Shown: one piece after another, positions 37,403-47,906 of the stretch | Position numbering within the stretch: the first letter of the stretch is position 1 | Layout of the letters: every line of letters begins with the position of its first letter | Assembly: GCF_030268085.1 (NCBI RefSeq) | Contig: NZ_BSDE01000006.1 | Location: forward strand, 186,491 to 250,490 | Origin: Geothrix limicola | GTDB lineage: Bacteria > Acidobacteriota > Holophagae > Holophagales > Holophagaceae | Direction: 5' to 3' | Length of the DNA stretch: 64,000 nt | Translations under genes and position numbers: made by a program | The notes under the pieces: model-generated | Database searches by the model: none | Seen by the model: the letters and a program-made list of their open reading frames with translations, nothing else | What the model was told of the DNA's origin: nothing

Positions 37403-37408
37403 ATCCAC

Positions 37409-37535
37409 CACGGAGACACGGAGCGCACGGAGGTTTCACTGAGAAAAGCAGGAGAAAGAAAACCGTCGGCCTCCCGCAGAGGTGTTGACTCTTTTGCCTC
37501 CGTGTTCCTTTCTCCGTGCCCTCCGTGCCTCCGTG
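37409..37535. mobile_element. Gene-less inverted-repeat element (MITE-like)
   Basis: The 24-base end at 37409-37432 and the reverse complement of 37512-37535 match at 22 of 24 positions. Each end is three copies of CACGGAG spaced by one or two bases, and a further inverted copy lies at 37498-37504. The 79 bases between the ends have no protein-like frame. The element sits between efp and rsgA. Its tripled 7-base design parallels the ends of the GxxExxY element at 44835-45279. Confidence 0.6.
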
Positions 37536-43285: not shown

Positions 43286-44830
43286 ATGCCGACGGCATTG
43301 ATCTCGGTGTATGACAAGACGGGGCTCATCCCCCTGGCGGAAGGCCTGCTGGCCCAGGGGTGGCGGCTGCTCGCCACGGGCGGCACATTGCGCACCCTGC
43401 AGGAGGCCAAGCTCGAAGCCCTGGAGGTCGCCGCCTACACCGGCGCCCCCGAATGCTTCGATGGCCGAGTGAAGACCCTGCACCCCCGCATCCACGGCGG
43501 CCTGCTCTTCCGCCGCGACCTGGCGGACCACGTGGCCGACGCCAAGGCCCAGGGTATCGAGCCCATCGATCTCGTCGTGATCAACCTCTATCCCTTCGAA
43601 GCCACCATCGCCCGCGAAGGCGTCACCGCCGCCGAGGCCATCGAGCAGATCGACATCGGCGGCCCGAGCATGATCCGTAGCGCCTCCAAGAACCACGCCT
43701 CGGTCACGGTGCTGACCGATCCGGACCAGTACGCCCCCTTCCTGGAGAAGCTGCAGTCGGGCACCTGGAGCCTGGAGGATCGCCGCCGCTGCGCCCTGGA
43801 GGCCTTCCGCCGGACAGCCGCCTACGACGCCGCCATCTCGGGCTGGATGGAGCGGGAACTGATCTCGAAGAAGGGCGCCGACCTGCCCCACCACCTCTGC
43901 CTGAACCTGGTGCAGAAGCAGGGCCTCCGCTACGGCGAAAACCCCCACCAGCCCGCGGCCTTCTACGTCGAGCCCGGGCGTCCGGCCCAGGGCATGGCCT
44001 CCTGCATCCAGCACCAGGGCAAGGAGCTGAGCTTCAACAACCTGCTGGACGCTGACGCCTGCGCCCGCCTGGTCTGGCAGTTCCCGGCCCCGGCCTGCGT
44101 CATCGTCAAGCACAACAACCCCTGCGGCGTGGGCCAGGGCCCCCACGCCCTGGAAGCCTTCATGCGCGCCCAGGCCGGCGATCCCGTCAGCGCCTTCGGC
44201 GGCATCGTCGCCTTCAATCGCCCCATCGGCGCCGAAGTGGCCCAGGTCATGGCCCAGAACTTCTGGGAAGTCATCCTCGCCCCCGCCTTCACCGGCGAGG
44301 CGCTGGAAGTCTTTGCCGCCAAGAAGCAGCTGCGTCTCCTGCAGACGCCCGACCACTGGCCCCAGAGCGCCGAGGGCCTGGACACCCGCTCCATCGGCGG
44401 CGGCTACTTGGTGCAGCGGGCCGATGACGCCTTCGTGCCCTTCGAGGCCTGGGAGGTCAAGGCCAGCGGCCCCGGCGCCAAGCCCCGAGCCGAGGACCTC
44501 ATGCTGGCCCAGCGCGTGGCCAAGGCCGTGAAGTCCAACGCCATCGTGCTCGTGAAAGACGGCGCCACCGTGGGCATCGGCGCGGGCCAGATGAGCCGCG
44601 TGGATTCCGTGGAGATCGCCTGCCGCAAGGCCGGGGACCGCGCCAAGGGCGCCGTGCTGGGCAGCGACGCCTTCTTCCCCTTCGCCGATGGCCTCGAAGT
44701 GGCCGCCCGCCACGGCGTCACCGCCTTCGTCGAACCCGGCGGCAGCCTGCGCGACAAGGAGGTCATCGAAGCCGCCCAGAAGCTCGGCGTCTGGCTCTTC
44801 TTCACCGGCATGCGCCACTTCCGTCATTGA
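43286..44830 (+). CDS. purH: Bifunctional AICAR formyltransferase / IMP cyclohydrolase
   Basis: The 514-residue enzyme performs the last two steps of IMP synthesis. The N-terminal IMP cyclohydrolase domain (about 1-190) starts ALISVYDKTGLIPLAEGL and includes FDGRVKTLHPRIHGGLL. The transformylase domain has RYGENPHQPAAFY, the catalytic KHNNPCG, and GIGAGQMSRVDSVEIA. I chose the ATG at 43286 with a GGGGGCGG just upstream; the frame stays open further 5' but is not family-like. The GxxExxY element begins four bases after its stop. Confidence 0.96.
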   Translation: MPTALISVYDKTGLIPLAEGLLAQGWRLLATGGTLRTLQEAKLEALEVAAYTGAPECFDGRVKTLHPRIHGGLLFRRDLADHVADAKAQGIEPIDLVVINLYPFEATIAREGVTAAEAIEQIDIGGPSMIRSASKNHASVTVLTDPDQYAPFLEKLQSGTWSLEDRRRCALEAFRRTAAYDAAISGWMERELISKKGADLPHHLCLNLVQKQGLRYGENPHQPAAFYVEPGRPAQGMASCIQHQGKELSFNNLLDADACARLVWQFPAPACVIVKHNNPCGVGQGPHALEAFMRAQAGDPVSAFGGIVAFNRPIGAEVAQVMAQNFWEVILAPAFTGEALEVFAAKKQLRLLQTPDHWPQSAEGLDTRSIGGGYLVQRADDAFVPFEAWEVKASGPGAKPRAEDLMLAQRVAKAVKSNAIVLVKDGATVGIGAGQMSRVDSVEIACRKAGDRAKGAVLGSDAFFPFADGLEVAARHGVTAFVEPGGSLRDKEVIEAAQKLGVWLFFTGMRHFRH

Positions 44831-44834
44831 TTGG

Positions 44835-44864
44835 AACCGCGAATGACGCGAATGGGCGCGAATG
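44835..44864 (+). repeat. Left terminal inverted repeat
   Basis: The repeat starts AACCGCGAATG and continues with two more CGCGAATG units. It contains the likely start codons of the enclosed gene. Confidence 0.75.
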
Positions 44865-45238
44865 ACGGTTTGGTCTTTGGCGAAGAAGCCTATGCCATCG
44901 TCGGTGCGGCCATGGAGGTCCATTCTGCGCTCGGCTCCGGATTTCTAGAGGCCGTCTACGCCGATGCGTTGGCGATCGAATTCTCGGCTCGAGGCATTCC
45001 TTTCAAACGGGAAGCCGCCATCGCGATCAGCTACAAGGGACAACGCCTCAGCCATGACTATCGTGCGGACTTCATTGCCTACGAGAGCATCATTGTTGAA
45101 TTGAAAGCCATCAAGAAACTCGGAGACATCGAACGTGCCCAGGCGACGCACTACCTCAAAGCCACGACCCATCCCCTGGCTATTCTGCTGAATTTCGGTG
45201 CACCCAAGCTAGATTGGACGCGCATCGTCCTCTCGTGA
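44843..45238 (+). CDS. GxxExxY family protein (PDDEXK-like nuclease fold)
   Basis: The protein has about 131 residues. The naming motif G-x-x-E-x-x-Y is in GSGFLEAVYADAL, after the helix AYAIVGAAMEVHSALG. The PDDEXK-type site is in the second half: Asp in YRADFIAYES and E-x-K in IIVELKAIKKL, followed by QATHYLKAT and ILLNFG. The family is small, cytoplasmic and widespread in environmental bacteria, without a proven function. All in-frame starts (TTG 44831, ATG 44843, ATG 44852) lie in or at the edge of the left inverted repeat. It is the only gene between the repeats. Confidence 0.85.
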   Translation: MTRMGANDGLVFGEEAYAIVGAAMEVHSALGSGFLEAVYADALAIEFSARGIPFKREAAIAISYKGQRLSHDYRADFIAYESIIVELKAIKKLGDIERAQATHYLKATTHPLAILLNFGAPKLDWTRIVLS

Positions 45239-45249
45239 CATCTCCTTTT

Positions 45250-45279
45250 CATTCGCGCCCATTCGCGCCATTCGCGGTT
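45250..45279 (-). repeat. Right terminal inverted repeat
   Basis: This is the reverse complement of the left repeat with one mismatch. It starts 11 bases after the GxxExxY stop codon and ends five bases before the alaS ATG, so it fills the alaS ribosome-binding region. Confidence 0.75.
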
Positions 45280-45284
45280 AAAAC

Positions 45285-47906
<2,622 letters not shown>

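Follow-up and report, generated by a model that had tools for sequence, protein, structure and literature searches.

The window analysed here, a 64,000-nt stretch of a Geothrix genome, carries between purH and alaS an intergenic unit of about 445 bp in which one gene of the GxxExxY family is enclosed by inverted arms built from tandem copies of a short word, and this unit is probably a one-gene, word-specific, homing-like selfish element. Comparison of sequences indicates that gene and arms form one heritable unit, that one such unit has been replaced by another between species independently of the flanking DNA, and that gene-less elements with the same words populate the genomes that bear the gene.

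The element in the window

A repeat search of the window recovered inverted arms of 31 nt, 97% complementary and spaced by 383 nt, which confirms the matched ends predicted at 44835 and 45279 and makes them one base longer than the 30 originally claimed. The features concerned are as follows.

44835..44865, plus strand: left arm, AACC followed by three tandem GCGAATG units with unit spacings of 9 and 10 bp
44831..45238, plus strand: GxxExxY / PDDEXK_3 gene, longest open reading frame 135 aa from TTG 44831, domain from near 44885
45249..45279, minus strand: right arm, the inverted copy of the left arm, with three GCGAATG units
37407..37534, unstranded: gene-less ACGGAG element with inverted arms at 37407-37432 and 37512-37534

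The arm can be written as AACC-GCGAATG-a-CGCGAATG-gg-CGCGAATG-a, that is, as three tandem words, and the right arm differs from the left by a g replacing the first a. The reading frame at 44831-45238 is the sole gene recognised between the arms, in keeping with the claim that a GxxExxY gene lies there alone, and its true start is uncertain because the in-frame ATGs at 44843 and 44852 fall inside the left arm. Its product is a clear member of the GxxExxY family (TIGR04256; 137.7 bits against a cut-off of 35 in an NCBIfam profile search) and matches PF13366 (PDDEXK_3), and no other family, in a Pfam profile search. The lower G+C content ascribed to the unit is also borne out, at 56% for the element, 71% for the last 500 b of purH, 65% for the first 500 b of alaS and 67% for the window. 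An Rfam search of 44500-45600 returned no RNA family match. The gene-less element at 37407-37534 carries ACGGAG, which is also the word of another GxxExxY gene in this genome (G000:C2:441098).

The protein as a predicted nuclease

The AlphaFold model of the protein is confident (pLDDT 95.5, pTM 0.88), and its best fold matches in the PDB are SSO0001 (E 7.6e-4), which we take to be a Cas4, LHK-Exo and lambda exonuclease, only one match having E below 0.001; RecE, MGME1 and AdnAB/AddAB rank lower. By sequence no convincing solved homologue was found, the only match being 2f8l at E 0.42. In domain numbering, residues E21, D61, E71, K73, Q85 and Y89 are conserved in no fewer than 191 of 196-197 aligned rows; they make up near-invariant motifs, a catalytic E, a D, E-x-K and Q-x-x-x-Y, presumably the motif set of RecB and Cas4. 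Because the catalytic residues are kept almost without exception, the gene appears to be under selection. The protein is not a Cas4, since no alignment column holds Cys in more than 30% of 198 rows; as modelled, it is a minimal PD-(D/E)XK nuclease whose nearest folds are those of Cas4 and lambda exonuclease. The TIGR04256 and PF13366 family models that were consulted give no role. A known defence or phage protein was considered and rejected, with no PADLOC (0 families) or PHROG match for the two proteins scanned.

Related genes and gene-less elements in the same genome

In the window's own genome (G000; 4.23 Mb in 20 contigs) the GxxExxY family comprises five full genes and a fragment, and four of these full genes are enclosed by inverted arms that share a design and differ in word:

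Window gene: word GCGAATG, arms of 31 nt, 97%
L009: word ACGGAG, arms of 31 nt, 90%
L010: word GTGATG, arms of 44 nt, 93%
L013: word GCGGAG, arms of 37 nt, 86%
L014: gene fragment, 16-nt arm pair retained
L012: full gene, no clear arm pair around it

The unit had been thought to stand by itself, and in this the original prediction was mistaken: the GCGAATG word pair, sought with the pattern GCGAATGN{1,3}CGCGAATG, has 52 matches in G000 (a control pattern has 0), mostly in gene-less hairpin elements. Among 36 GCGAATG locus rows inspected by eye, in which some places appear twice, most are gene-less inverted pairs with a short loop and a few show a single clear arm. Searching the host for the end sequence had been meant to tell a repeat tied to GxxExxY genes from one that is abundant genome-wide and has no such link. 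The repeat is abundant, and it is linked: other GxxExxY genes of the genome do have arms, with words that differ from gene to gene. Many of the GCGAATG elements contain, between two word units of either arm, a short inserted cgcccttcgggcg-type hairpin (L015, L020, L025, L030, L038-L040, L043 and L044, at about position 1500).

Arms around GxxExxY genes across phyla

The wider comparison drew on 80 named loci from many phyla, which are the best 80 of 561 confirmed candidates and so are biased to near relatives; most of these loci share the armed anatomy, with many different words. Arms were scored by local alignment of a gene's two flanks, leaving out domains shorter than 90 profile positions, duplicate places and genes with a flank shorter than 80 b (one diverse, one genus). 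By this score, 54 of 81 genes from diverse phyla have flanking inverted arms above the 99th percentile of 1236 displaced windows from the same loci, as do 92 of 111 genes of the genus when set against 195 displaced windows. Gene and repeats thus go together in most cases and not in all: 46 of 192 genes (27 of the 81 and 19 of the 111) fall below the threshold, and some whole site groups, the cluster with L260 for the most part and the cluster with L245, are without two-sided arms in the windows used. One of the two archaeal loci in the diverse set has clear arms (L128) and the other is without them (L151). Loci L264-L295 entered the test of word presence against arm count and the site and tree analyses, and are absent from the arm scores, unit counts, word-protein coupling, residue conservation and same-genome pairs. 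At L077 and L095 the gene seems to have a whole hairpin element to its left and another to its right, in place of single arms.

The anatomy is regular among the 149 genes with an arm score above 18. Three units per arm are typical, with exactly 3+3 in 81 of them; the median element measures 494 bp, with median gaps of 35 bp between left arm and domain and of 5 bp between stop and right arm, and the open reading frame extends into the left arm in 125. A generic arm pattern has 1101 matches in 50 diverse genomes against 9 for its control, with at least one match in 38 of the 50 and 314 in Herpetosiphon giganteus; these counts speak of abundance and not of dependence, because the 50 genomes were picked for having the gene. 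That the arms are plain terminators or chance, as the whole story, can be rejected, as they recur across phyla and above controls.

Coupling between word and protein

Word and protein clade are coupled. Among the 149 genes with an arm score above 18 (92 from the genus), to which the coupling and same-genome pair tests were restricted, the arm similarity of non-syntenic pairs grows with protein identity (Mantel rho 0.268 for all genes, null maximum 0.074 in 500 permutations), both within the genus (rho 0.197, null maximum 0.081) and in diverse phyla (rho 0.285, null maximum 0.208). Alike arms are seen in a fraction of 0.00 of the pairs at 30-40% protein identity, of 0.11 at 50-60% and of 0.29 at 60-80%, and in six of six pairs above 80%. 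For three of four words, arms are more numerous in genomes whose GxxExxY genes include one with that word, by a test that ignores relatedness and in which gene presence was judged with mismatches allowed, among the matches listed: GCGAATG (p 1.4e-4, or 0.008 with the gene's own arms removed), ACGGAG (p 4.7e-5, or 0.001) and GCCAAG (p 0.002, or 0.004). GCGAAA shows no such excess (p 0.1, or 0.87), and the genomes richest in GCGAAA arms (G032, G043 and G026) have no GCGAAA-word gene among the matches listed. In G008, eight GCGAATG arm matches stand with no GxxExxY gene among the matches listed, and arms may outlive their gene.

Within a genome, alike arms are rare. They are shared by only 4 of 110 same-genome gene pairs, so that a genome nearly always has a single gene for a given word, though this is no strict rule, and because these four pairs are only 49-67% identical in protein they are not recent duplicates. 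An element that multiplies as a transposon can be discarded, no recent within-genome duplicate of the gene having been found in the 110 pairs.

Sites in the genus and exchange between species

The family is present in at least 40 of the 47 Geothrix genomes, among the matches listed. As the original prediction had envisaged, relatives with an empty purH-alaS junction exist: of 19 plus-strand junctions compared, four hold the gene and 15 hold only 45-174 bp. The word at the gene-bearing junctions is GCGAATG in G000 and G027 and GCGAAAG in G020 and G021, partly degenerate in the last, and 4 of the 15 gene-less junctions are ACCAAG hairpins. Contents of the junction vary by species (L047-L074), including ACCAAG arms, CTCCAAAAACGGGC hairpins and GC-rich blocks, and the junction has the look of a hot spot of intergenic turnover. 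Units related to that of the window, about 445-463 bp long and with both arms, lie at another site in three other species (G014, G033 and G001), at 69-70% DNA identity.

When 147 genes were grouped by synteny of both flanks (duplicates and the fragment, L171, L187 and L014, being set aside), 19 sites of at least three genes resulted. Mapped onto the protein tree, the site labels change 18 times, the fewest possible for 19 sites, against a mean of 93.6 when shuffled, on a quick tree of few columns in which rows outside the 19 sites are uncounted. Seventeen of the sites are single gene clades and the other two hold nested genes of other sites. Nested in the clade of the window's site are the GCGAATG genes of the second site (G001, G033 and G014); nested in site S16, whose loci include L162, L175 and L177 and of which one member has clear ACCGAT arms, are site S04, with ACCGAT words, and site S14, where such words stand on one side. 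Both cases look like moves between sites with the word kept.

At least five sites have two words, and four of them were tested, with word labels assigned by eye before the trees and with some arms at S02 and S03 mixing words. At the first, where 12 species carry either ACCAAG or GCCAAG, the gene tree contains a single word split (support 97/97), whereas the flanks, whose trees stand in for the species tree, need four changes and reject the word split (p-AU 0.0004); the gene for its part rejects a pairing of G035 with G037, which are sisters in the flanks (p-AU 0.002). Measured from G035, G037 is closer than the word-mates G022 and G010 in the left flank (0.886 vs 0.854 and 0.826) and the right flank (0.948 vs 0.919 and 0.915), whereas inside the element the word-mates are closer (0.704 and 0.698 vs 0.645), on a windowed profile that is uneven, G022 equalling or beating G037 in several flank windows. 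At the other three sites the word split of the gene has support of 100/100 each, and the flanks reject it with p-AU of 0.039 (S01, marginal), 3.6e-5 and 4e-7, so that the history of the gene differs from that of its flanks at all four sites tested, one of them marginally. The splits do not reflect convergence of the protein towards the word, because third codon positions alone give the same ones (support 86/91 to 99/97), and that explanation was dropped.

Since the gene tree follows the word and the flanks reject this grouping, gene and arms were exchanged together: at a fixed site, gene and word travel as a single unit whose ends lie close to the arms. Ordinary interspecies recombination at the locus, without any action of the nuclease, could also account for the disagreement between gene and flank trees.

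Turnover of gene-less sites

For eight GCCAAG elements of G035, the comparison took in relatives of which the nearest are 97-98% identical where measured. At L312 the outer ends are shared, and between them lie GCCAAG in G035, ACGAAG in G042 and ACCAAG/ACGAAG in G037; at L308 G042 has ACCAAG/ACGAAG, G040 an ACCAAG remnant, G037 a GCAGAG-type hairpin and G000 a GC-rich block. A GCAGAG-type hairpin replaces the GCCAAG element in three relatives at L314 and in two at L330. The element is absent at L310 in G042 and G013 (with other sequence in G037), at L330 in G013, and at L320 in G040, where some neighbouring bases are missing with it. The word of L318 is kept in G013 and G037, and G042 has an unrelated 1.8 kb there; G042 has full-length matches to L320 and L330, and at L323 several other words are found in G042. 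No target-site duplication or clean insertion boundary was seen among the few vacant sites compared, where neighbouring bases differ as well.

By eye, the gene-less elements of G035 fall into size classes of about 61 and about 222 bp between arm matches. The loops of the elements viewed are unlike each other, which would not be expected under copying of whole elements, and we regard such copying as doubtful. Two GCCAAG elements of the larger class that were viewed (L320 and L328, at about 1500-1740) have in their loops a GC-rich palindromic repeat of about 165 bp, beginning ATCCCGGGGGCGCC and oppositely oriented in the two, a case of one repeat family lying inside another.

A proposed mechanism and its alternatives

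In the homing-like reading that we favour, the nuclease would recognise the word, probably as three units per arm and possibly as a hairpin or single strand, and would cut or resect DNA at an arm-bearing or vacant site, after which recombinational repair would copy the whole unit in, as it does for homing genes. Gene-less elements would be relatives that have been mobilised in trans or overwritten, standing to the gene-bearing unit as REPINs stand to RAYTs. We infer that the arms are the target of the nuclease, which fits the coupling of word and protein, and that cleavage and movement are its doing. The original notion that the unit is minimal and mobile or homing-like is well supported by the gene-arm association, the vacant junctions, the second-site unit and exchange at fixed sites; the prediction as a whole is upheld in part, falling short in that the unit is not solitary. 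A broader claim, put forward tentatively as having somewhat less than an even chance, is that word-programmed homing elements are a new class of bacterial, perhaps archaeal, selfish DNA, in which the Cas4/lambda-exonuclease-like protein would read a word repeated three times in tandem in its own arms, rival words would displace each other at fixed sites and the gene of each word would drive gene-less hairpin elements across the genome.

A REPIN/RAYT-like arrangement, in which the gene is mainly vertical at its site, copies gene-less hairpins of the same word in trans and is not selfish, seems unlikely as the full account, and yet much of the evidence suits it. A genome has close to a single gene for each word, none of the four alike-armed pairs being a recent duplicate; 17 of the 19 sites are site-specific clades; gene-less arms far outnumber genes; and single-strand DNA folding of four example elements, compared with shuffles, gave z of -6.3, -6.1, -3.1 and -8.7, which shows a potential for hairpins. 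Against it, gene and word have been exchanged at sites independently of the flanks, and the window's gene clade occurs with its arms at two sites, from which it follows that the gene is mobile to a degree; nor is the protein a RAYT by its profile and fold matches. Such a reading accounts both for the populations of gene-less elements and for there being almost one gene per word, and it may be true together with the homing-like one.

Ordinary interspecies recombination at fast-evolving intergenic loci, acting on a long-inactive transposon with terminal inverted repeats (TIRs) whose gene-less derivatives are MITEs, would produce exchange without the nuclease. We consider this improbable: the TIR-and-MITE anatomy and the two size classes in G035 are what it would lead one to see, but the catalytic residues are nearly always kept, the gene does not multiply within genomes, word and gene clade remain coupled and the loops viewed are dissimilar. 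That the hairpins are useful 3'-end structures (transcription terminators), with the nuclease a host factor that maintains or edits them, is very improbable, for although 35 G000 rows (two of them the window's own element and some places counted twice, by a rough gene caller) comprise 18 convergent and 17 tandem gene contexts with none divergent and none intragenic, the patchy presence of the family in the genus, the different words per gene and the turnover between genomes 97-98% identical run counter to it, and these fit promoter-avoiding selfish DNA as well.

The homing-like reading would have consequences beyond this locus. GxxExxY, an orphan family found in many phyla, gains a concrete and directly testable role as selfish DNA, and intergenic repeats with ACAGAG-, ACGAAT-, GCCAAG-type and other words become parts of a single system. 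Should the protein read the word, a new DNA-recognition code could be worked out from the word-protein pairs that nature already supplies, and the replacement of one unit by another at site after site amounts to an experiment of nature in how selfish elements compete.

Comparison with known systems

Free-standing homing endonuclease genes place one nuclease gene at each site, undergo allelic exchange uncoupled from the phylogeny of the flanks, occasionally move ectopically and occur patchily. The GxxExxY genes resemble them in that their history at sites departs from that of the flanks. Unlike them, the window's gene is intergenic, between purH and alaS, and not in an intron, intein or conserved gene, and the GxxExxY unit carries its own word-repeat arms, the same words being found in many gene-less copies. 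TIR transposons have terminal inverted repeats around one gene and gene-less derivatives (MITEs), an anatomy that the GxxExxY unit shares with its inverted arms, single gene and gene-less derivatives; it differs in that its protein has no recognised DDE, HUH or recombinase transposase and in that there are no recent duplicates within genomes. With the Cas4/lambda-exonuclease/RecB family the predicted GxxExxY protein shares fold and catalytic residues, but it is stand-alone, of about 120 residues, repeat-associated and without conserved cysteines, whereas Cas4, in the portion of the literature drawn on here, has four conserved cysteines of an Fe-S cluster (PMC5704561).

In the REPIN-RAYT system, as described in the sections consulted of two papers, the repeats on either side of a nuclease gene recur elsewhere, outside genes, as inverted pairs that form hairpins, there is close to one gene per repeat family, and RAYTs are HUH tyrosine transposases with GTAG-tagged palindromes (Bertels and Rainey 2011, PMC3116915; a 2013 paper on GTAG/CGTC repeats, PMC3733652). 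The GxxExxY gene is likewise flanked by repeats dispersed as inverted hairpin pairs. It differs in that the protein is a PD-(D/E)XK protein and no HUH/Y1 transposase and the arms are made of three tandem words; the window's arms, the only ones scanned for it, are without the GTAG tag. A further difference is that several words occur per genome and that gene and arms are exchanged at fixed sites. The open-access literature searched yielded no published description of the association of GxxExxY genes with arms. Because it fails a defining test of both homing genes and REPIN-RAYT, the system is placed in neither, and within that literature the new part is the tie between arms, words and exchange and the known GxxExxY family.
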